Shown here one piece after another: positions 4,549 to 21,818 of a DNA stretch of 50,590 nucleotides. The translations under genes and the position numbers were made by a program. Under the pieces are notes generated by a model, which made no database searches, was not told where the DNA came from, and saw nothing but the letters and a program-made list of their open reading frames with translations. Origin of the DNA: a virus; IMG/VR virus record IMGVR_UViG_3300044837_000106, positions 1 to 50,590 of that record; one strand, written 5' to 3'. Every line of letters starts with the position of its first letter. Position 1 is the first letter of the stretch.

Positions 4549-7500
4549 ATGCCCAAGCACCTCACTACCGACGACGCCGGGGAGTTCGTCCAGACCGACC
4601 AGGTGGGCGTGGCCAACGGCGTACCCCCTCTGGACTCCGGCGGGAAGATCCCGTCGGCGTTCATGCCTGTTTCCTCCGGTGGCGTCACCTCGGTCAACTC
4701 CCAGACCGGCGCCGTGGTGATCACGCCGGGATCCATCGGTGCGATTCCGGATTCCTCCAAGGGCGCTGTGAACGGCGTGGCACCCCTGGACGGATCGAGC
4801 CGCCTGCCCGTGGGCAACCTGCCCACGGCGGCAGTGCAGACCGTCAACGGCTACGGCGGCCCCTCGGTGACCCTGGCGGCCAGCGACCTCGGCGCGATCA
4901 GTCAGGCCACGGCGGACGGCCGGTACATGCGCCAGGACTCGCTGGTCTACAACGCCAAGGAGCACGGTGCCGTCATCAACGGCACCACGGACGACGCCGG
5001 AGCGATCAACTCGATCCTGAGCACCTCCCCGGCTGGCTCCGTGATCGTGCTGCCCCCGGGTGACGTGGCGATCCTCTCCCCGATCATCGTGCCGCCGGGC
5101 AAGACCCTCCTGGGTCTGCACTCGAACCTGATGAAGGTCACCGGCCTGACCGATCCGGCCGTACGGATCAAGCCCCTGGCGGGCTTCACGGGCGCGGCAG
5201 CCGTCATGTTCGTGGATCAGACCACGGGCGGCTATGCCGCGATCTCCGGCGAGCAGCGCCTGATCGACGTCATGATCCACGGGGCCAGCGCTCCGGCGAG
5301 TGTCGACGGCATCCAGTCGAAGGGCAACGTCCAGAACGTGGTCCTGTCCGGGGTGACCGTCCGGGACATGACCGGCAACGGCATCTTCACCGGGGTCAAC
5401 TCCGGGGCGTACCCGTACTCGTGGCGCATGCACCACGTGATGCTGGACAACAACCACGGTCACGGCATGTCCGTCGCGTTCATGACGGACCTGACCATGG
5501 TCGACTGCCAGGCCATCGGCAACGGGGCCAACGGCTTCGTGCTCAGCAACATCGCCAACAGCCAGCTCTCGACCTGCCGGGCCGAGTGGAACGGCAACCA
5601 CGGCTACTACATCACTGGCGCCTGGGGTACTGGTACGGGCTCCGGCGGCATGCAGATGAGCGGCTGCGGGACCGACCGCAACGGCTTCCACGGCGTCTTC
5701 GTGGACGCCACCGGCAACGGTCCGATCGTGATCTCCAACCTGATGACCCGGCGCGACGGTCGCAACGGCGGTACGGGCGGTGGCGGCTACGCGGGCCTGT
5801 GCGCCAGTGCGGCCACGGTGCCGCTCACCATCGGTGACTGGGTCAACTACCCGGGCGTGGACGACAACTCCACGGGGACGAACTCCCCGCAGTACGGCGC
5901 CTCCTTCACCGGCAACACCTTCGTGCAGCTCGACAACGCCTACCTGCACGCGGCCACGACCGCGCTCAACAATGGCGGCAGCAACACCACGCTCCAGCTC
6001 GGTGTGAACATCACGTACGCCACCGGCACCACGGCGTCGCCCACCAGGGCCGTCCAGCAGTTCTACGTGGCCACGGCGACCAAGGGCGTGGCCAGCGGTG
6101 TGGCCTCTCTGGACGGTACGACCAAGGTTCCGGCCGCTCAGCTCCCGATCGACACCACCGCAGCAAACATCGCGGCCCTGGGCACCCAGGCGGCCGGAGC
6201 CGTCGGCAAGGTGGCCGACTCGGGACACGTCCACACGATGCCCCGCCTGGACCAGGTGGCGGCGCCCACGGCTGCCGTGGCGCTGAACGGTCAGAAGATC
6301 ACGGGTCAGGCCAACGGAACCGTCTCCACCGACAGCGCGGCCTTCGGCCAGATCCCGGTGGCCGGAACGGGTGCGGGGACCTACGCGGCGGGTAACGACA
6401 GCCGGATCACTGGAGCCATCCAGAGCGGTGCTACGGCGGGAGGAGACCTCTCCGGCACCCTGCCGAGTCCCACCGTGGCGAAGATCAACGGTGTCGCGGT
6501 CACCGGTACGCCGACGACCGGCCAGGTCCCTGTGGCGACTTCGGGCACTGCTGCCACCTGGCAGACCCCGGGAACCGGTGGGCCGCCCTCGGGAGCCGCG
6601 AGCGGGGACCTCTCCGGTTCCTACCCGGGTCCCACGGTCGCCAAGGTCAACGGGACCAGCGTTCCGGCAACTCCGACCTCCGGCCAGGTCCTGACAGCCA
6701 CCTCGGGAACTACGGCGATCTGGCAGACCCCTTCTGCCGCGCCCACGGGCTCAGCAGGCGGAGACCTCAGCAGCACTTACCCGAACCCGACCGTGGCGAA
6801 GATCAACGGAACGAGTGTCCCCGCGACCCCGACTTCGGGTCAGGTCCTGACGGCGACCTCCGGCACGGCGGCCACGTGGCAGACACCGTCCTCCGCGCCC
6901 ACCGGTTCGGCCGGAGGTGACCTGAGCAGCACGTACCCCAACCCCACCGTGGCCAAGATCAATGGGACGAGTGTTCCGGCGACCCCCACGTCCGGTCAGG
7001 TACTTACCGCCACGTCGGGTACCGCCGCGACATGGCAGACCCCGTCCACGGCGCCTACGGGTTCGGCGGGCGGCGACCTGAGCAGCACCTATCCGAACCC
7101 CACGGTGGCCAAGGTCAACGGGATCACCGTCACCGGTACCCCGGCCACGGGCAATGTCCTCTCCGCCACCAGCACCACTGCGGCGTCCTGGGCTGCTCTG
7201 ACGACGTCCCAGGTCCCCAGCCTGTCGTCCCTGTACGTGCCGGTCACGACCAACGCGGACAACCAGTTCTCCCCCGGCGACCATGGACTGATCGCCTGGA
7301 CCAATCCGGCGCCTCTCGCCAACGACACGGGCCAGCCCGCCTCTGGAGGTGTCCGGCTCGTCAAGCTCACCCTGAAGCGCGCGGCCACCATCTCCAACAT
7401 CTGGCTGACGATCACCGTCGCCGGGGCAACCCTCACTGCCGCGCAGAACTTCGTCGGGCTCTACACCTCAGCCGGGACCAGGGTTGCCCTCTCGGCCGAC

Positions 7501-7841: not shown

Positions 7842-10800
7842 ATGGGGCTTGGACGCCGAGAGAGCAGCCACGAGACTGCCCTGTCGCTGAAGCACGCGGC
7901 GGCGGCACCGTACCCGGCGGACTACTCCGTGGGCCAGCGCGTGATGACGGTCGACGGGATCCCCGGGCGCGTGGAGGAAGTGGTCTACTCCCCGGTCATG
8001 GGCGAGGAGTACCTCGTCGTCCTGGACAACGGAGCGGGCCAGGGTCAGTACGCGCCCACGCAGCTCTCCCCGTACGCCACGAACACCCACCAGGCCACCG
8101 GTCTCCACCTGGCCTCCGACGACTACCCCGAGCTGGACCAGGTCCTCCAGGAGCGGCCGGACGTCGCCCTCCCGGTCCGCATGGGCTCCCTCCAGACCAT
8201 GGCGGCCGACCGGCAGCAGATCCAGCCCAACTTCGAGTTCGAGGAGGAGGACACCGGCGGCTCGAAGTGGCCGACCCGGGGGATCCTTCGCGCCACGCAC
8301 CCGGACACCGGCGAGCACATGGGCAAGCTCGACTACCTGATTCCTCGGCGCAAGGCCGACGGCCTCAGTGTGGGCCGCCTGGAGACCCAGGAGGAGCACC
8401 GGGGCAAGGGCATCGGCTCTGCGCTCATGGACGAGATGCAGCACCGGCACCCGAAGATGCCGATCGACCACGGCGACCGTACGGACGACGGCAAGGCGTG
8501 GTGGGCCAAGTACAGCGACGGCAAGTCCGTCCGCAAGGGTCGGACGATCCACAGCTCTCTGGGAATCGTCACCGCTGGGGACGACGACTACCGGATGGAG
8601 CACCAGGCTCCGGACGCGGAGTGGGGAGCACCCCTTCACGATCTCAGCGGCAACGGCATGTACCCCAAGGACATCTACACCCACCCGCACTACTACTCGG
8701 ACATGAACGAGCCGAGCAATCAGGAGGCTCACCGGGTCGTCCGGAAAGCTCAGGGCAACCCGGACGCCAAGGTGCAGATCTACCGCTCGCTGCCCGCTGA
8801 GCATGCCCACAAGGGCTTCCAGCCCGGCGACTGGGTGTCCACCAGCAAGGAGTACGCCCGCGATCACGGACGCCAGGATGATCCCAAGGACGACTGGCCC
8901 GTCATCCGCGCGAGTGTGCGCGCCGGGGACCTCCACACTGAAGGCAACGACCTGCGCGAGTGGGGTTACAACGGCGACCAGCCGAAGATGGGCATGGTCT
9001 CCCACAAGGGCGGTTACAACCAGGAGATCCGCCACGGTGCAGACGGCATGATCACCCCCGTGAAGAGGCGTACGCCGAAGACCGCCGGTGACTACTCCAT
9101 GCAGCACGGCGCCCCGGGTCCTGGAGAGGGCAACAATCACCTCGGCGAACTGGGCCACGCGGGCGAGATGATGGACGTCTACAGGGCGGCCCCGCACGGC
9201 ACGAACGCGATCAACAAGGGCGACTGGGTCTCCACGAACCCCGACTACGCGCACCAGCACGGCTACGGCCAGGCGCCCCGGGACGGCGACTGGCCCGTCC
9301 TGCACGCCAAGGTGCCTGCCGAGCATGTCTGGACCGACCACAACGACGAGAACGAGCAGGGCTACCAGGGGCCGGACCTCAAGAAGCCGGGCTTCCACCA
9401 CCCCGAGCTGGGCCACCTCACGCACGAGGACGCCCGGATCGGCGAGGAGGACCACAAGGAGCAGGGGATCCACCTCCTGAGCCCCGAGCCCTCTCCCGAG
9501 GTCCACAACGGCGCGGCGGTCCATCTGAGCCCTGAGGATCATGCGTTCGTCCACGACAGTTCGAAGCCGATCGCCCATCGGGCGGAGCGGATGTACCAGG
9601 CTGTCCACAACAGCGGCGCGCATCTCTTCAACGACGAGCACGAGGATCCCGACGACGCGTCCATGGACGCCGACGTGGACGCCTCCGACATGCCCCGGGA
9701 GCCCCACCCGCCGACCCATGTCGTCCTGCACGGGCACGAGGGCAATGGCGGCCAGCACCATGGCATCTCGTGGGCCAAGGGTGCTCCGACCGAGGACGAC
9801 TACGACCCGGCGTATCCGAGCGAGTACACCCACCACCACCTGGTGGACGGCAGCCACCTGAAGACGGCGGCGGCCGAGGGCCCGAAGACCTACAAGTGGC
9901 AGGGTCAGGAGTACGCCCCTGAGGGCGGCTACCGCGACAAGGAATACGAGGTCCAGGGCCCGCTGTACCACGGTGGCGGCAAGCGGCTGAAGGAGGGCGA
10001 CACCATCCGGCCCGGCCGGAAGTCGAACTACCCGAACTGGGGTGACGAGCCGGGCAAGTCCCAGCACGTCTACTTCACCCCGCGAGTGGACACGGCGGCC
10101 TCGTACGCCCATGGGACCGGCGGTCACGTCTACGAGGTCGAGCCCACGGGCGACTTCAAGATGGATCACAACGCCGACGACTACAAGACCCAGCACCCGC
10201 TGCGGGTCGTACGGCGCCTGGAGCCCCACGAGTGGGACGGCTCGAAGACGGCCAACCAGCAGGACGGCGGATTCCAGGGCGGAGAGGACTACTCGCCCGA
10301 GGAGGGCATCGTGGAGCACGGCGACCCGTACGAGATGCTCTCGACGGCGGCGGTCGATCCAGAATTTAAATTCCACGTCACGGCTGCCTGGGCCGACGTA
10401 CGGGCGAAGGCTAAGCGGATCCGCGCGGAGGGCGGGGTACGCATCACCCTCGCGAGCGACGGACTGGTCTTCGGAGAGGTCAAGGGCGACCACGACGTCT
10501 ACGAGACCGGTGTCCAGCGCTTCCCGGGTGCCCGCAACTCGATCGCCACGTACTCCTGCGGCTGCAAGTGGGGCGCGTACCACTGGGGTGCCGAGGACGA
10601 CTTCTCGCGCTTCGCGGGCCGTATGTGCTCGCACGCCCTCGCGCTCCAGTACGAGGCCCAGAGCCAGGGCATGTTCGGCCGCGACGTCGTGGAGGACGCC
10701 CACAAGCCCGAATGGGTCCCCAAGCACGTCGTGATCCGCTACGACATCGACGAGGGCCGCAACAAGCTGGTCCGCTCCTCCGTCAAGGAGGCCGGATACA

Positions 10801-12422
10801 ACGCGTACGGCGACTGGGACGGGCACGACGACGATGACGAGGAGAACCAGGCGCACGCCAAGCAGTGGGACGACATCCACTCGGGCCTGGGAGACATCCA
10901 CCGGGGCATCAGCGTCCACCTGCGCCCCGAGGACCACGACATCGTCCACAACCCGAACATCCCAGAGCACGAGCGCGCTCAGCACCTGCTGAAGGCTCTC
11001 CCGCACAGCAGCCTGGCACGCGGCCAGGAGGGTCTGGGCACGCACTGGAGCGACCGGGACCACGTTGCCGAGGACTTCGGCGAGATGGACTCCGGCACGA
11101 ACAGCAAGGGCTGGCACCCGACCTCGGTCGTCTTCCACGCGCACACCCCGGACCGCAGCTCCATCGACGAGCACCCGGACCAGGGAGCGGGGGAAATCTA
11201 CGGCTACCACGATCACGGTGAGCGCGAGGTGCCCCTCCAGCACGGTGCGCCGGTTCACCTCAAGGGCATCTCTTGGAAGAACATGAACGGCCCCGACGAG
11301 GACTTCACCACGGTCCACGGGGACGGCCTGTTCGACGGCATGGCCGACTACCAGCACCACGGCTTCGGGCCGGAGGGTTACCACCACCACGCGAAGGTGG
11401 AGGTGACCCCGCTTCTGGAGCTGACCCGCTACGCCTACAAGCGCGGCGAGCTGGAGGAGATGGCCTTCACCATGCAGTCCCTGGGGCTGGACGCCACGGC
11501 GGCCGTGAACTCCCCGTGGGGCGAGCCCACCCCGGAGCCCGCGAGCTACGCCCAGGGCCCGACGAAGCCCCGCAACCAGTCGGAGAACCCCGGCTCGACC
11601 GGCTGGGCCTCCCAGGGCGACCCGGACAACTGGGACTCGATCATGCCCAACGAGCTGGGAGACCGCGTGGCCTCCCTCGGCCCGTCGGCGGACGAGTTCA
11701 TGTTCGAGGGCTCCATCCCCCAGGAGGTCGCCGAGTCGGACGACCCCATGGGCTCCACGGAGAACTCCGAGAGCATGCCGGGTGAGATGCAGTCCGTGGC
11801 GGCCGAGAACGGCCCCGACAGGCCTTCGGGCCCCAAGGGTGGCTCCGGTGGCCGGATGCCTCCCGGGCACGCTGGCATGCCCCACCACGACGAGCTGAAG
11901 GACGACCTCGGGGAGGACCTGGAGAAGGAGGCCTTCTGGCCGATGGTTCTCCGCGCTGCTCCGGCGATCATCAACGGCATCTCCGAGCTGGCCGACCACA
12001 AGGACGACGAGGACAAGGAGGGCGCCGAGGCGACCCTCCACATGGAACCCCAGGGCGCCCTGCCGTTCACCGACGGGGACGGACCAGATCTCACTGACGA
12101 CGAGTCCCTGACACCCCCGCGAGCGGCCTCCCTGACCGTCCAGGACATCGTGGAGCAGTTCCAGCACCGGGCGGCCCACCTGAACCCCGGGAGCGCCGCA
12201 GGGGCCCCTCTGGCCCCTCTGTCGGGCAGTGGGGCGGCCTCCGAGATCGCGGGAGCCGCTCGGGCCGCTCTGGCGAAGATGGCTGTGAAGGACTACAGCC
12301 CGGCCGAGCAGGCTGCGATCATCAATGAGGGTGGCAACGTCAGGGCCGCGAACCTGGACCGGCTCGACATCGGCGACACCCACTACGCCCACCTGACCGA
12401 CGAGGACGAGATCTCATGGTGA
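7842..12422 (+). CDS. Giant multidomain effector: GNAT-like, several ADP-ribosyltransferase-like modules, Arr-like domain, SWIM zinc finger
   Basis: This is a 1526-residue protein. Visible modules are: GNAT-like acetyl-CoA loop ([14 protein letters not shown], about 185-200); ART module 1 (about 245-400) with IYRS, GDWVSTS and a late NQE; ART module 2 (about 410-545) with VYRA and GDWVSTN; a degenerate VHLSPEDH module (about 558-670); an Arr-like domain (about 704-800) with [23 protein letters not shown] and PLRVVRRL, close to rifampin ADP-ribosyltransferase; a SWIM zinc finger (SCGCKWG then CSHALAL, about 904-940); a fuller copy of the VHL-PEDH module (about 1023-1190) with GTHWS; then a Pro/Gly-rich tail with a hydrophobic helix near 1363-1385. 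ARTs transfer ADP-ribose from NAD to proteins or nucleic acid. I infer a protein carried in the virion and delivered to the host, as with T4 Alt. Start: ATG after GGAGG. Confidence 0.8.
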
Positions 12423-13690: not shown

Positions 13691-14029
13691 GTGGCGAATG
13701 AGCCGGTGGGCAAGGACGACTTCAACCGCCACATCGACCGTCATGACCGGATTCACTCGGAGCTGGACGCCCGGCTCGCGCGGGACATGGTTCCGCTTCC
13801 GATGTACACGGGCGATCAGCGGATCACCGAACGACGTCTGACGAACCTGGAGACCGCGCTCGTGAGCAAGGCCGACACCGCTGACCTCCAGCCGCTCAAG
13901 GAGCGCCTGGACAAGGTGGAGCAGCGCCCGGCGAACGTGAGGAACTACCTGATCGCGCTGGCTGGACTGGGACTGACCCTCCTGGGCATCGTGGTGAGCG
14001 CCTACTTCTCCGCCAAGGGGTCTGGATGA
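13691..14029 (+). CDS. Coiled-coil membrane protein of the lysis region, 112 aa
   Basis: I chose the GTG at 13691 because GGAGGT sits five bases upstream; an ATG at 13643 in the same frame has no ribosome site. The protein has a charged N-terminus (VGKDDFNRHIDRHDRIHSELD), a heptad-like helix (residues about 45-85) and one C-terminal transmembrane segment (YLIALAGLGLTLLGIVVSAYF, about 87-107) with a short basic tail. This shape is typical of small phage membrane proteins near endolysins, acting as accessory holin or spanin-like factors. Its stop overlaps the next ATG. The exact lysis role is inferred from location. Confidence 0.65.
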   Translation: MANEPVGKDDFNRHIDRHDRIHSELDARLARDMVPLPMYTGDQRITERRLTNLETALVSKADTADLQPLKERLDKVEQRPANVRNYLIALAGLGLTLLGIVVSAYFSAKGSG

Positions 14030-14856
14030 GTGCCCACGCGAAAAAGCCTGTCCCGGGAGAGGGCGACGACGGCTGGTTCGACCGGAATCAGTTCACGGTG
14101 CTGAAGCTGGCCGTCGGAGCCATCTTCCTCCTTGTCCTGCTGACCGGGGCATATGTCTCCTACCAGCTCTTCACGCTCTCCGACCGGACCAACCAGCAGG
14201 GCAGCACGATCACCGCCCTGTCCCAGAGCCTGGACAGCTCGCGCAAGCAGCTCCAGGACAACGGGATCACTCCGACGGTCCCTCCCGCCAAGACCGTCGT
14301 GGAGAAGATCGAGGGCTCGCCCGGGGCCAAGGGGGACACTGGCGCATCGGGCGTACAAGGACCTGCTGGCTCGCCCGGCCCTTCGGGCTCTACTGGACCC
14401 CGTGGCCCCAAGGGCGATACGGGAGATACGGGTCAGTCAGGGGTCTCGGGTGTCGCCGGTGAAACCGGCCCTTCCGGCGCACCCGGGACCAGCGGGCAGG
14501 ACGGTAAGGACGGCACTCAGGGGGCTCAGGGAGACCCGGGACCGGTCGGACCGACTGGGCCCCAGGGTGACAAGGGCGAGACCGGGGACCAGGGGCCTCA
14601 GGGCGATCCTGGACCTGCCGGGACCCTGCCCTCCACCATGACGATCAACCATGCCGACGGCAGCACCGAGACGTGCACTCTCCAGGGTGATTCAACGTAC
14701 AACTGCTCGGGTACGGCAGCTTCATCGCCGACGCCGACAGACACCTCTCAGGCCCTGTCCTCGGACTACCCGCACAACACCCCACAAGGTCCAACCAGGC
14801 CCATGTGGATGTCACAGGTGTATGCGATCGTTTCCGACAGGAAGCGCTTCGTGTAA
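14026..14856 (+). CDS. Membrane-anchored collagen-like protein, 276 aa
   Basis: The ATG overlaps the previous stop (ATGA). A cytoplasmic N-terminus is followed by one transmembrane segment (LAVGAIFLLVLLTGAYVSYQL, about 28-48), which would place the rest outside. A short coiled coil (about 50-80) precedes about 33 consecutive Gly-X-Y triplets (about 96-199), rich in GPXGDKGETG-type charged triplets. A two-Cys tail region (TCTLQGDSTYNC) follows. The coiled coil could nucleate a triple helix. Collagen repeats are common in fibres but unusual in a membrane protein of a lysis cassette. The role may be lysis timing or host-surface change; both are speculation. Confidence 0.72.
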   Translation: MSAHAKKPVPGEGDDGWFDRNQFTVLKLAVGAIFLLVLLTGAYVSYQLFTLSDRTNQQGSTITALSQSLDSSRKQLQDNGITPTVPPAKTVVEKIEGSPGAKGDTGASGVQGPAGSPGPSGSTGPRGPKGDTGDTGQSGVSGVAGETGPSGAPGTSGQDGKDGTQGAQGDPGPVGPTGPQGDKGETGDQGPQGDPGPAGTLPSTMTINHADGSTETCTLQGDSTYNCSGTAASSPTPTDTSQALSSDYPHNTPQGPTRPMWMSQVYAIVSDRKRFV

Positions 14857-16482: not shown

Positions 16483-19071
16483 ATGCGCAAATACGCCAGT
16501 ACACAGGTCATGACCGCGACCCTGGTCCCACAGGGTCTGGTGGGGCGCGACCTGAAGAGGTTCGCCCACCGGCATCACTTCGAGTACGACGTGCGCCCGG
16601 GTTACCTCTACGTGAGGTCCCGCGCGATCTCCTCGCGCTGCAACGACAACTTCGACGAGTTCCCGGCCGACGAGCTGGCGAAGGCGTACGCGTCTTTCAA
16701 CGGCAAGCCGGTCTTCGTGAATCACGTCAACGACGACCACCGCCGGGCCCGAGGGGTCATCATCGACTCCGCCCTCCACAAGGACGCGAACCGCGACGGT
16801 ACGCGCGACTGGTGGGTGGAAGTCCTCATGGAGGTGGACGCGGTCCGCTTCCCGAGGCTCGCGAAGGAGATCCTGGCGGGCAACATCGCTCGCACCTCCA
16901 TGGGCTGCGATGTCGCCTTCTCGGTCTGCTCGGCCTGCAACAACAGGGCGACCACCCCGGCGGAGTACTGCCAGCACATCCCCGCCTCCAAGGGGATGAT
17001 GCTCTACCGGACCATGGCTGCCGGGCACAAGGTCGGCGAGATCATCCGCGAGACCTGCTACGGCCTGAAGTTCTTCGAGAACAGCCTCCTTGTGGAGCCC
17101 CCGGCAGACCCCACGGCCCACTTCCTCGGCGTGGACACACGCGGCCTGGACAAGGCCGCCAGCCGCCGCACACCGCCCGCTCCGGACCAGAGGACATCCG
17201 CCTTGCTCACCGACCTCTTCGTGACGGCTGCCGAGGCCCAGGCGCCCGGCGAGCACCCGTGGTTCGCCGAGACCGGCATCCACCACAAGAACATCGTGGA
17301 CCACTGGAGCGACGCGACCGACGAGGAGAAGGCGCAGGGCAAGCGCTGGTACCCGGACGCGCATCTGGTGGCCAAGCAGATCGCGAAGCTCGACCCCCGG
17401 GTCTCCTCCGAGAAGGAGGCCGCGCACAAGGGCGCCGGTGTCCTCTCGGCGTACTCCCCGCAGCAGAACTGGTGGGCCAACCAGCACAACGCTGCGAGGT
17501 CCTTCCACGAGCAGCGCGCCCTGGGCAAGGGCGAGGGCCTCATGATCATGGGCAGCCACCAGAAGGCCGCCCAGCGGATCATGGACGGCGAGGACTCGCA
17601 GAAGGTCCTCAAGGGCCCCAAGACGGCCGACTTCGCCCACCTGATCGAGCATGGCGGCTACAAGCCCCAGAGCGACGAGGACGCGGCGGCGGGCAAGCCC
17701 AAGGAGCACTCGGACAAGGTCGTCATCGACCGGCACGCCCTCTCCGTGGCCGCCGGACGGCGCCTGAACGCCGACGACGTCAAGGGCTTCAAGTCCCAGA
17801 GCCGCCCTCACTACGAGCACGTGGCGGGGGAGTACCGCAAGGCGGCGGCCGTCATTTCCGACCGCGAGGGCCGCGAGGTTCCTCCGCACGAGGTCCAGGC
17901 CGTCACCTGGCTGACCCGGCAGCGGAAGAACAAGGACGAGGAGATCTCGACCCCGGGCGGCAAGGGCCGTCAGACCATGCAGAACAACCAGCGCAAGCAG
18001 TGGGGTGAGCTGAGCCGCATGCACACCCCGCAGCTCCACGAGGACGCGAACTCCCACGTATCCCCCGCGCCGGAGGAGCCCACCGCGTCCAAGACCGCGA
18101 AGGGCGTGGTGCTCCCTTTCGCTGGTGAGCCGATGCGACGCACCGCCTCCCTGAGGGTGCAGTCGTACGGCGAGACGAAGGCGCCCCAGGACGTCGACAC
18201 CCTGCGCGAGGACGCCTGCCCGGTGTGTGGTGACCGCGACACGTTCGACGGCGCCCAGTGCCAGGTGTGCGGCTACGTGGCGCCCCCGAAGATGTTCCAG
18301 GACCCCGACCTGGAGAAGGCACGGCAGATGGATCTGCGGAAGGACATCGCAGACTTCCAGGACCCGTCCAACCCCAATCAGGTGGGCCCTGACGGACAGC
18401 CCGTCGATCCGGAAGCGCTCGGACCCGACGGACAGCCCCTGGACCCGACTGCCCAGGACCCCTCGATGCAGCCCGGCGGGCTCCCCGGTGAAGTACAGGC
18501 CGAGGTGCAGCCCGACGACGGCAGCCCGATGGACCCGACGCAGATGGGCGAAGAGGGACAGATCCCCGACGAGGCCGGAGCGCCTGTCGACCCGTCGATG
18601 ATCGGTCCCGACGGCATGCCCCTCCAGCAGCCCGGCCAGCAGATGGTCGGACCGGACGGGATGCCCATCGGTCCCCAGGCCCTCCCGGCCGGAGCGACCA
18701 CGGACATGGGCCAGCCCTTCACCCCGGGCCCGAACATGCCGCAGGGCCCCGGCGACCCGGAAGGTCCCGAGGGTCCGGCCGGAGCCGACGAGCTGACCGA
18801 GGACGGCCAGGTCCCGAACCCGGACGTGGGCCAGGGAGCGCCCGGCACCCCCGAGGACGGCGTGCCGGACCTGATGTGCCCGGCCTGCGGTTTCACGGCC
18901 GACGCCACCCAGCCGGTCTCGGTCGACATGGACACCCAGACCCTTCCGAACGCGGGAGGGATGGCCGAGGACGGCGTGCAGGCGGGCGACGTCTGCCCGA
19001 ACTGCCAGTCGGCCCAGCTCCTGAGCCCCGCCGAGGTACAGGGTGAGGCTTCCGTACCGATGCCTGTCTGA
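16483..19071 (+). CDS. Prohead (capsid maturation) protease fused to a glycosylase-like domain and two zinc ribbons
   Basis: The 862-residue product begins with a prohead-protease-like domain (about 1-200): GKPVFVNHVNDDHRRARG with candidate His81, then GNIARTSMGCDV with candidate Ser139, the order seen in phage head-maturation serine proteases. A second domain (about 256-483) has GVLSAYSPQQNWWANQ, LKGPKTADFAHLI and VVIDRHALSVA, resembling the helix-hairpin-helix glycosylase-like fold found in some actinophage proteins. Next come a zinc ribbon (CPVC/CQVC, about 579-598), a long Pro/Gly/Met-rich linker and a last zinc ribbon (CPAC/CPNC, about 799-840). It lies just before scaffold and capsid genes, as expected for the protease. 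I chose ATG 16483 because the open frame upstream overlaps T2 and P4. The glycosylase call is weaker than the protease call. Confidence 0.75.
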   Translation: MRKYASTQVMTATLVPQGLVGRDLKRFAHRHHFEYDVRPGYLYVRSRAISSRCNDNFDEFPADELAKAYASFNGKPVFVNHVNDDHRRARGVIIDSALHKDANRDGTRDWWVEVLMEVDAVRFPRLAKEILAGNIARTSMGCDVAFSVCSACNNRATTPAEYCQHIPASKGMMLYRTMAAGHKVGEIIRETCYGLKFFENSLLVEPPADPTAHFLGVDTRGLDKAASRRTPPAPDQRTSALLTDLFVTAAEAQAPGEHPWFAETGIHHKNIVDHWSDATDEEKAQGKRWYPDAHLVAKQIAKLDPRVSSEKEAAHKGAGVLSAYSPQQNWWANQHNAARSFHEQRALGKGEGLMIMGSHQKAAQRIMDGEDSQKVLKGPKTADFAHLIEHGGYKPQSDEDAAAGKPKEHSDKVVIDRHALSVAAGRRLNADDVKGFKSQSRPHYEHVAGEYRKAAAVISDREGREVPPHEVQAVTWLTRQRKNKDEEISTPGGKGRQTMQNNQRKQWGELSRMHTPQLHEDANSHVSPAPEEPTASKTAKGVVLPFAGEPMRRTASLRVQSYGETKAPQDVDTLREDACPVCGDRDTFDGAQCQVCGYVAPPKMFQDPDLEKARQMDLRKDIADFQDPSNPNQVGPDGQPVDPEALGPDGQPLDPTAQDPSMQPGGLPGEVQAEVQPDDGSPMDPTQMGEEGQIPDEAGAPVDPSMIGPDGMPLQQPGQQMVGPDGMPIGPQALPAGATTDMGQPFTPGPNMPQGPGDPEGPEGPAGADELTEDGQVPNPDVGQGAPGTPEDGVPDLMCPACGFTADATQPVSVDMDTQTLPNAGGMAEDGVQAGDVCPNCQSAQLLSPAEVQGEASVPMPV

Positions 19072-19149: not shown

Positions 19150-20106
19150 ATGGCAGGAAACCGCCCGCTCATGCAGGCCATGGCGTCCCAGCAGAAGACC
19201 GTGAGCGCCCTCGCGGCCCGCAACGCAGCTCTGGAGGCCCGCAACGCGGACCTGGAGCACGAGGCGGCCGTCCAGGGCCTCCAGCTCGCCTACATCGCCC
19301 GCATGGCCGGAGTCACCGATCACCTCGGCGCCATCCGTGCCGAGGCCGACAAGATGCGCAAGGCCGCCGACATCGACAACCCGGCCCAGCCGGTCCCGAA
19401 CCCGGCCTCGCAGCCCGCCACGGAGTCCACCGAAGAGGCGGCCACCCCGGAGGCGTACGACAACCCGAACCAGATCGGCCAGACCCCCGGTGCGAACCAG
19501 GGTGTGGCGGCCGAGACCACGGCCACGCCTATGGACCCGGGCGTCACCCTCCCCACCGCGCCGTACAACAACCTGGTGGACGTCTCCGCGCCGGTCTCCG
19601 GTACCGAGACCCACGTGCCGGACGAGATGACCCGCATCGAGACCGACGTGCGTGTGGGCGACCCGATGAACCCCGAGACGGCCTACCCGCTCAACCCGGC
19701 CTTCGGCCCCTCGCAGCAGCAGGGCACCACGCCCCCGCGCTCCGGTGAGATGAGCCAGACCGCGAGCCTCAACGCCCCCGGCCGCACCATGGCTGCTGTC
19801 CGTCTGGCCCGCCTGCGGGTGGCCGCCGGACTGGCCCAGGGTGACGACCTCGCCGTGGCCGCTTCGATCGAGGGGAACGCGGGCCTCAGCATGGAGGCCA
19901 TCCGTGCGGAGATCGACACCCTCGGCCGTGTGGCCAAGGCTGCCGGTCGCCAGACCCGCCAGCGCCCGCAGGGTCTCGTGCCCCGTGCGGCGGCCTCCGG
20001 TGTCCAGCGCACCATGCCCTCTCTGGTGACCCAGGACGCTCCGATCACCTCGGTGGCCGGTGCGGTGGGTGCGGTCGACTCGGACGCCGAGGACATCTAC
20101 CTGTAG
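19150..20106 (+). CDS. Capsid scaffold protein (probable)
   Basis: The 318-residue product has a coiled-coil N-terminus (residues about 10-75, LAARNAALEARNADLEHEAA), a long disordered Pro/Thr/Ala-rich middle (about 76-195) and a helical C-terminus (about 205-270). This is the usual make-up of a scaffold that shapes the procapsid and is then removed. It sits between the protease and the capsid genes, matching that role. QTASL near residue 200 resembles motifs in the protease and effector, a possible processing site. A GAAGTACTTC palindrome (19138-19147) overlaps the ribosome-binding region and could fold over it. Assignment is by composition and place. Confidence 0.7.
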   Translation: MAGNRPLMQAMASQQKTVSALAARNAALEARNADLEHEAAVQGLQLAYIARMAGVTDHLGAIRAEADKMRKAADIDNPAQPVPNPASQPATESTEEAATPEAYDNPNQIGQTPGANQGVAAETTATPMDPGVTLPTAPYNNLVDVSAPVSGTETHVPDEMTRIETDVRVGDPMNPETAYPLNPAFGPSQQQGTTPPRSGEMSQTASLNAPGRTMAAVRLARLRVAAGLAQGDDLAVAASIEGNAGLSMEAIRAEIDTLGRVAKAAGRQTRQRPQGLVPRAAASGVQRTMPSLVTQDAPITSVAGAVGAVDSDAEDIYL

Positions 20107-20828: not shown

Positions 20829-21818
20829 ATGACGACTCAGACCCTCGCAGCCACCTCGTCCCTCCGGGGCCGTGTGGCACGCAAGTCGGACGACTACGTT
20901 TCGTCCATCGTGGCCCGTCGTGAGAAGAGCGCTCCGCTCTCCCACGAGGCCAAGGTCCAGAAGATGGCGCTCATCCTCTCCGACGAGACCAGCGGCATCC
21001 GCCGTCTGGGCGTCGGCATGGTGGGCCCCATCCAGCTCAAGCTGCGCTACCAGGGCATCACCCGCAACGTCCTCGTCGAGGACCCGGTCACGCCGGGCAC
21101 CCCCGTCGAGTACGACGTCTGGGACGACCTGGGCCAGGCGTACATCATGAGCGGCACCGAGGGCGAAGTCCGTGTGACTCCGTTCGAGGGCAAGCGCGTG
21201 CCGGTGCGGTTCTTCCGCATCGCCTCGCGTCCGGCCATCCGCAAGGAGGACCTGTTCTACCTGCGCATCAACGCGGTGGAGCAGGCCCAGGACGAGACCA
21301 AGCAGGCGATCCTCAAGCAGGAGGACACCCGCCTGCTCGTCCTGCTCCAGGCCGCGCTGACGGACTACGCCACGCGCCCGGACCACACGGTCACGCCGAA
21401 CCACAACATCACCGAGGCGTCGGGCTACCTGACGCCGGGGTCGCTGTACTCGGCCGTCGCGATGACGGACATGCACGAGCTTCAGAGCGCGCGCATCCTC
21501 ATCAATCCGTTCGACTTCCGCGACCTGTACCGCTGGGACATCAACCAGACGGGCTGGGCCTTCAAGGACCGGGTCGTCGCGGGCGAAACCATCACCAGCT
21601 TCGGTGAGTTCCAGATCCAGCGGTCGATCATCGTGCCCCAGGGCAAGGTGTTCCTCACCCCCGAGCCGAACTTCCTCGGCGTCTTCCCGGTTCTCTACTC
21701 GCTCGACGTCGAGGAGAACCACATGGTGGAGGCGTTCTGGAAGGGCTGGGTGTTCGACGAGATGGTCAACATGTCCATCCTGAACCCCCGTGGTATCGCC
21801 ACCATCACCAAGGCGTGA
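20829..21818 (+). CDS. Major capsid protein
   Basis: The 329-residue product forms the capsid shell. It opens with a basic N-arm (SSLRGRVARKSDDYVSSIVARREKS) and has the mixed alpha/beta pattern of the HK97 fold, including VRFFRIASRPAIRKEDLFYLRINAVEQ near the long-helix region, and it ends with ILNPRGIATITKA. Scaffold, protease and decoration genes lie just upstream and a strong terminator follows, as expected for the most expressed gene. TLAATSSLRG near residue 10 could be an N-terminal processing site. The ATG follows an AGGAG site. Confidence 0.87.
   Translation: MTTQTLAATSSLRGRVARKSDDYVSSIVARREKSAPLSHEAKVQKMALILSDETSGIRRLGVGMVGPIQLKLRYQGITRNVLVEDPVTPGTPVEYDVWDDLGQAYIMSGTEGEVRVTPFEGKRVPVRFFRIASRPAIRKEDLFYLRINAVEQAQDETKQAILKQEDTRLLVLLQAALTDYATRPDHTVTPNHNITEASGYLTPGSLYSAVAMTDMHELQSARILINPFDFRDLYRWDINQTGWAFKDRVVAGETITSFGEFQIQRSIIVPQGKVFLTPEPNFLGVFPVLYSLDVEENHMVEAFWKGWVFDEMVNMSILNPRGIATITKA

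Follow-up and report, generated by a model that had tools for sequence, protein, structure and literature searches.

Results

The protease gene and its neighbourhood

The window, by which we mean the whole stretch of 50,590 nucleotides analysed here (IMG/VR virus record IMGVR_UViG_3300044837_000106), is a viral record of 50.6 kb that is probably a fragment, and the phage that carries the gene described below is a large actinobacterial phage. Its late genes are those of the group formed by Rhodococcus phage E3, the Bixzunavirus mycobacteriophages and Gordonia phage Pupper, with which it shares an orthologous protease (42-44% protein identity), the gene order protease - small structural gene - major capsid protein and a large cargo-like gene further upstream. 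At the DNA level, the capsid genes of the window and of E3 share 74.5% identity over part of their length. The protease gene starts at 16483 and is followed by genes at 19150, 20276 and 20829, so that it lies just upstream of the probable scaffold gene and the major capsid protein gene. The features needed below are listed here; a slash within a motif marks the candidate cut.

7842..12422, + strand: multi-domain gene of 1526 aa, probable companion cargo gene (Arr-ms match, E 8e-11; a domain in common with the L163 slot; [KR]TA motifs)
16483..19071, + strand: protease-cargo fusion ORF, 862 aa (ORF and full-length relatives)
16483..17145, + strand: gp21/assemblin-type prohead protease domain, aa 1-221 (PHROG 18299, invariance, model)
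16723-16725, + strand: H81, invariant in 35 sequences
16897-16899, + strand: S139, invariant in 35 sequences
16927-16977, + strand: C149/C152/C163/H165 cluster (CxxC...CxH) inside the protease, invariant in 35 sequences
17146..18165, + strand: exchangeable slot, aa 222-561, from GLDKAA to YGETKAPxDVDTLRE (alignment of relatives)
17284..17919, + strand: DUF7178 (PF23802), predicted HhH-GPD glycosylase fold, aa 268-479 (Pfam profile and structure model)
17620..17622, + strand: K380, candidate catalytic lysine (GPK; domain K131)
17728..17730, + strand: D416, candidate catalytic aspartate (VIDRH; domain D167)
18091..18099, + strand: K-T-A junction motif (SKTA/KGVV), candidate cleavage site ([KR]TA match)
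18139..18147, + strand: R-T-A junction motif (RRTA/SLRV) at the right slot border, candidate cleavage site ([KR]TA match at the border)
18217..18270, + strand: zinc ribbon 1 (C579, C582, C593, C596)
18385..18852, + strand: Pro/Gly/Gln-rich linker with GPDGxP repeats (ORF translation)
18877..19005, + strand: C-terminal zinc ribbon (C799, C802, C838, C841)
19150..20106, + strand: conserved gene between protease and coat genes, probable scaffold (position; KTA/RTA motifs in some relatives)
20829..21818, + strand: major capsid protein (PHROG 2522, E 2.5e-103), with RVA/RKSDDYV near its N-terminus (20871-20879)

The frame opens with an ATG at 16483 behind a GGAGG-like site and is a genuine gene for a protein of 862 aa, as had been assumed from the sequence. 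Relatives encoded at 44 loci, many of them full-length, rule out a frame or assembly artefact as the source of the fusion. Among 39 viral contigs found through the protease part alone, a set that contains some near-duplicates, DUF7178 stands in the same frame in 25, in the directly following ORF in 4, and is absent from 10. The Streptomyces sp. A0642 assembly also encodes, on a contig of 152.5 kb, a protease-DUF7178 fusion whose DUF7178 region is 71% identical; this points to streptomycetes as hosts of phages in the group. This contig (L165, NZ_SSBL01000019.1; 152,548 bases), on which the gene comprises protease, DUF7178 and zinc ribbon, looks like a whole related phage inside a bacterial genome record.

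By its fold, its conserved His and Ser and its gene position, the N-terminal part of the ORF is a prohead protease of the gp21/assemblin type, with a predicted role in cutting head proteins. Residues 56-206 match the PHROG profile 18299 ('head maturation protease'), and residues 37-221 were modelled as a T4 gp21-type prohead protease. The best solved match to this AlphaFold model, which was built from 28 relatives (pLDDT 84.8), is T4 gp21 itself (Z 10.5, 2.3 A over 126 residues), with herpesvirus assemblins and proteases next at Z of about 7-9.5. The His81/Ser139 pair named in the original prediction lies where it was placed and is invariant in 35 of 35 sequences, the remotest of which are about 40-44% identical. 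Equally invariant in this set is a cluster that the original prediction had not named, C149/C152/C163/H165, which is probably a metal-binding site within the protease domain. The two zinc ribbons that had been read at the other end of the protein were also recovered as CxxC...CxxC patterns, C579/582/593/596 being conserved in near relatives and C799/802/838/841 lying in a conserved C-terminus. Collagen-like Gly-Pro repeats occur in the linker that joins them (GPDGQP) and in a separate upstream gene at 14026-14856.

An exchangeable slot behind the protease

Alignment of relatives shows that what lies between the protease and zinc ribbon 1 is exchanged from phage to phage, and we call this segment the slot. 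Two fixed borders enclose it, the left one reading PADPTAxFLGVDxxGLxKAA and the right one AYGETKAPxDVDTLRE, and its length ranges from 13 aa in E3 to more than 1,700 aa. Even among relatives with an 82-90% identical protease the slot is near-empty in two (L030, L137), holds a NUDIX domain in another (L134, on the same contig as L025) and contains segments without a Pfam match in two more (L023, L135); DUF7178 occurs at this level of identity as well. Remoter relatives combine NUDIX, GNAT and DUF7178 (L050) or DUF6582 and DUF7178 (L012). The window phage carries DUF7178 where E3 has no insert and where LinStu, Pupper and Skog have a Phage_L5_gp82 domain. The public annotation of the Skog prohead protease fusion (gp158, L002:5953-9201) as a LysM-like endolysin looks wrong.

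The 1526-aa gene upstream is probably a second cargo polyprotein. It contains an Arr-like ADP-ribosyltransferase at aa 708-795, a weak GNAT match, stretches matching PHROG 2579 and 2940, and [KR]TA motifs at aa 413, 674 and 802. NUDIX, GNAT and ART-like domains are all found in the giant upstream gene of this group as well as in slots, and NUDIX and ART-like slot domains match upstream giant genes with E values of 6e-40 to 1e-28: the NUDIX domain in the slot of L158 finds its match in the giant gene that precedes the protease in sister phages, and the ART-like domain in the slot of L163 matches the 1526-aa gene of the window (E about 1e-28). Because these domains are shared, the slot gene and the giant gene appear to draw from one cargo pool. 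In one such giant gene (L157:1037-5212), weak intein/LAGLIDADG matches lie beside GNAT and NUDIX.

DUF7178 and its candidate active site

The middle segment (residues 256-483) had been read as a glycosylase-like fold from the motifs YSPQQNWWAN, GPKTADF and VVIDRHAL, and all three fall within the Pfam DUF7178 match at residues 268-479. This match scores 120.9 bits against a curated cut-off of 27 (E 8e-35; E 5e-37 in a second search), which excludes chance motif matches as the source of the glycosylase-like segment. The domain was modelled with high confidence (pLDDT 94.4, pTM 0.90). A plain Foldseek search of the model against the PDB gave nothing significant, its top row being Pa-AGOG at E 0.52, and the fold claim rests on a second look with VIA-align. 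There, the model was closest to the Ogg of M. jannaschii (MjOgg; Z 12.1 over 172 residues) and that of S. solfataricus (SsOgg; Z 11.5), followed by Pa-AGOG, MagIII, Qng1/DUF2419 (Z 8.6), hOGG1, MUTYH and the phage enzyme PUGT (Z 3.5). Only members of the HhH-GPD superfamily lie above Z 3, those outside Ogg at 3.5-8.6, and the first unrelated row follows at Z 2.7. As helical models reach middling Z by chance, we weigh this clean gap and the active-site evidence above Z itself. The comparison with HhH glycosylases thus bears out the predicted fold and rules out the unrelated scaffold-type helix bundle against which the original prediction had set it.

Conservation within the family points in the same direction. 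In 33 diverse DUF7178 sequences, which include stand-alone genes from Streptomyces, Microbacterium, cyanobacterial and roseobacter phages, the residues G37, W40, Y41, S76, W81, N84, K131, F135, D167 and W227 (domain numbering) are invariant, and the candidate catalytic residues K131 and D167 (K380 and D416 of the ORF) are likewise invariant throughout a set of 97 distinct domains, drawn from bacterial genomes as well as viral contigs. Like OGG2 (MjOgg, SsOgg; Ogg-HhH), DUF7178 combines the overall fold with a hairpin-helix Lys, an Asp in V/I/L-D-x-H and a comparable spacing between them, the OGG2 protein segment SYKEASHFLRN..AILDRHIL corresponding to GPKTADFAHLI..VVIDRHAL. The Lys and Asp are 17-20 residues apart in compact stand-alone members and 18-19 in the Nth/OGG2 relatives that we fetched, and an extra loop lengthens this distance in fused members, this ORF included. 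DUF7178 differs from OGG2 in this loop, in the h-x-G-h-G hairpin of the HhH motif, where the second Gly is usual (GPK, GIK, GQK) and the first is absent, and in lacking detectable profile similarity. The Pfam Ogg-HhH profile (PF22175) has no match anywhere in the window; hhalign with the 33-member alignment gave probabilities of 0.2% for OGG2 and 6.5% for endonuclease III (Nth) homologues, neither of them significant, partly because the OGG2 set is nearly a single sequence; and phmmer and profile searches of the PDB for a solved relative returned chance matches only. Since sequence profiles alone fail, kinship with the glycosylases is an argument from fold and active site and not one of OGG2 membership. 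On these grounds, modelling supports an HhH-GPD-superfamily fold for DUF7178, and we predict that the domain is a glycosylase.

A candidate cutting signal and fission of the gene

Slot segments outside DUF7178 are rich in the triplet [KR]TA, with 43 occurrences against 8.0 +/- 2.8 expected, a count that none of 300 shuffles reached; in homologues of the upstream gene there are 51 against 12 expected, and in control ORFs of the window 3 against 5.3. A position scan found strong joint enrichment for K/R (weakly H) in first, T in second and A in third place. In the window, the triplet occurs at the K-T-A junction and at the right slot border, which in relatives often reads RKTA/YGE. Left of DUF7178 the window has no clear [KR]TA, only DKAA and VTAA, and a close relative (L007/L131) has KRTA there. 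E3 (L004), which has no insert, shows LTA at the border instead of [KR]TA. Two observations make it too strong to call every [KR]TA a junction: one lies within the active-site helix of DUF7178 (GPKTADF), and one in L134 appears to be inside a NUDIX box.

Similar triplets are found in the neighbouring head genes. The scaffold-like gene of some relatives contains KTA/DIANPA or RTA/PSG motifs. In the capsid protein, where the middle residue is V or I besides T, [KR][TVIFS]A directly precedes the conserved KSDDYV in 31 of 43 distinct contexts (GRVA/RKSDDYV in the window), which we count once because this is one homologous site and not 31 independent ones. This triplet sits where a cut by a prohead protease would be expected.

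The gene itself is also split in some relatives. In L035 (4932), L037 (5668), L041 (5356) and L042, DUF7178 and the zinc-ribbon tail have a gene to themselves, whose ATG lies at or shortly after the end of the protease gene, the pairs being adjacent or overlapping, and in L039 and L040 only the tail is encoded separately, beginning VTNPQRKFAYGETKAP at the right slot border (L039:11841-11906). Fission at the slot borders is what one would expect if the pieces normally function apart.

Discussion

We believe, with some confidence, that the fusion is a polyvalent cargo protein which its own protease would cleave and which would be packaged along with the genome, and slot swapping, shared cargo domains, the [KR]TA motif and border fission together lead us to predict that DUF7178 is packaged cargo. 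Known relatives of the protease go into the prohead; that of SPN3US trims a C-terminal propeptide of 64 residues off itself and has ejection proteins among its substrates, propeptides being generally expected to exit the head (PMC10052503). The slot occupies the place where related proteases have such a removable propeptide, which may here have grown into a cargo bay. In our proposal, the scaffold would bring the fusion with it into the prohead. When the head matures, the protease would cleave after [K/R]-[T/V]-A at several places: in its own chain, in the scaffold, at the N-terminus of the capsid protein and in the cargo linkers. Released in this way, DUF7178 would remain inside the head and reach the cell along with the DNA. 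Its most likely activity there would be that of a Lys/Asp N-glycosylase/lyase on a nucleic-acid base, either in the repair of (oxidised) incoming phage DNA or in an attack on host nucleic acid; alternatively, it could remove a modified base or nucleoside in counter-defence. In its widest form, the proposal is that the protease gene serves as a general loading bay, in which any [K/R]TA-flanked domain set between the protease and the AYGE border is carried in, cut out and injected, and through which the DUF7178 glycosylase is delivered before phage gene expression; this we put forward only tentatively.

What the enzyme would act on can be read in more than one way. It is conceivable, if on balance unlikely, that the cargo has an HhH-GPD fold and yet excises no base from DNA, and would instead handle free nucleosides or nucleotides, like Qng1/DUF2419, or transfer groups onto modified DNA, like PUGT. 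The Qng1 structures at Z 8.6 and PUGT at 3.5, the loss of the first hairpin Gly with retention of the Lys, and the company of NUDIX, GNAT and ART domains, which act on nucleotides and proteins rather than in DNA repair, are all compatible with this reading. However, the OGG2 DNA glycosylases are closest by a clear margin (Z 12.1 and 11.5), and the Lys-Asp spacing of compact members fits DNA glycosylases. Since OGG2 enzymes have the closest folds, our preference is for base excision from DNA; a nucleoside role for DUF7178 is possible, given the incomplete HhH hairpin and the NUDIX/ART/GNAT company.

Packaging, too, has an alternative, which we consider unlikely: the enzyme may be expressed late as part of the fusion and remain unpackaged, acting inside the cell, for example in repair of phage DNA before packaging, with the fusion merely coupling its expression to that of the head genes. 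Streptomyces, Microbacterium, cyanobacterial and roseobacter phages carry stand-alone DUF7178 genes outside head clusters, and the enzyme can therefore work without a head protein. Coupled expression is harder to reconcile with the location of the insertion between protease and tail, with a linker motif common to capsid and scaffold-like proteins, and with cargo shared with the upstream giant gene. Finally, although the self-removed C-terminal propeptide of SPN3US (PMC10052503) is a precedent for it, it is improbable that the middle segment serves as a structural propeptide or scaffold, to be cleaved into pieces and lost from the head, its enzyme fold a relic, since the invariant Lys, Asp, Trp and Asn over 97 domains indicate an active site under selection, L030 and L137 manage without the domain and a separate scaffold-like gene comes after.

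The packaged-cargo reading places the fusion among known systems. Polyvalent proteins are large phage proteins that mix unrelated enzyme domains (ART, GNAT and others) and are predicted to enter the virion, undergo processing and be injected together with the DNA (Iyer et al. 2017, PMC5512222); a comparable mixture is seen here, with protease, HhH-GPD-fold domain and zinc ribbons in the window and NUDIX, GNAT and DUF6582 in relatives. In the polyvalent survey, however, the assemblin-like protease is always C-terminal and the word glycosylase is absent (PMC5512222), whereas here the protease is N-terminal and the cargo is a glycosylase-fold domain. The proteases of T4 (gp21) and phiKZ/SPN3US have the same fold and provide a precedent for cleavage at a short motif in both head proteins and packaged ejection proteins, but their cargo is encoded in separate genes and here it is fused to the protease. 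The motif reported for SPN3US includes X (any residue) among P3-P2-P1 (PMC10052503), and the candidate described here is basic-Thr-Ala. Multi-enzyme injected phage proteins as such are thus known; what is new is the glycosylase-type fold for DUF7178 and the candidate processing signal. A literature search for phage virion glycosylases returned nothing relevant.

Packaged phage effectors are hard to spot by sequence. Should the slot and the [K/R]TA signal prove sound, they would offer a readable rule for virion-delivered enzymes across a large actinobacterial phage group and a natural template for putting foreign proteins into phage heads. If the predictions for DUF7178 are true, some phages would import a base-excision enzyme along with their genome, and a fold and a probable active site would be in hand for a function-less Pfam family that is widespread in phages and unmentioned in the literature searched.

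Other occurrences of DUF7178

A stand-alone, well-conserved DUF7178 is present in about 25 Pseudonocardiales records from Amycolatopsis, Lentzea, Kibdelosporangium and Pseudonocardia (L166-L190, match near 6001-6669), and no head-gene context was seen around it. The neighbours of these chromosomal copies gave no functional hint, as only BTAD regulators were found, some distance off. The DUF7178 protein gp104 of Jflix2 (L228:1423-2025) is publicly annotated as a glycosyltransferase, which looks wrong. Lastly, gp99 of LRRHood (L227:4716-6518), another gene downstream of the Bixzunavirus capsid gene, contains a divergent DUF7178-like domain.
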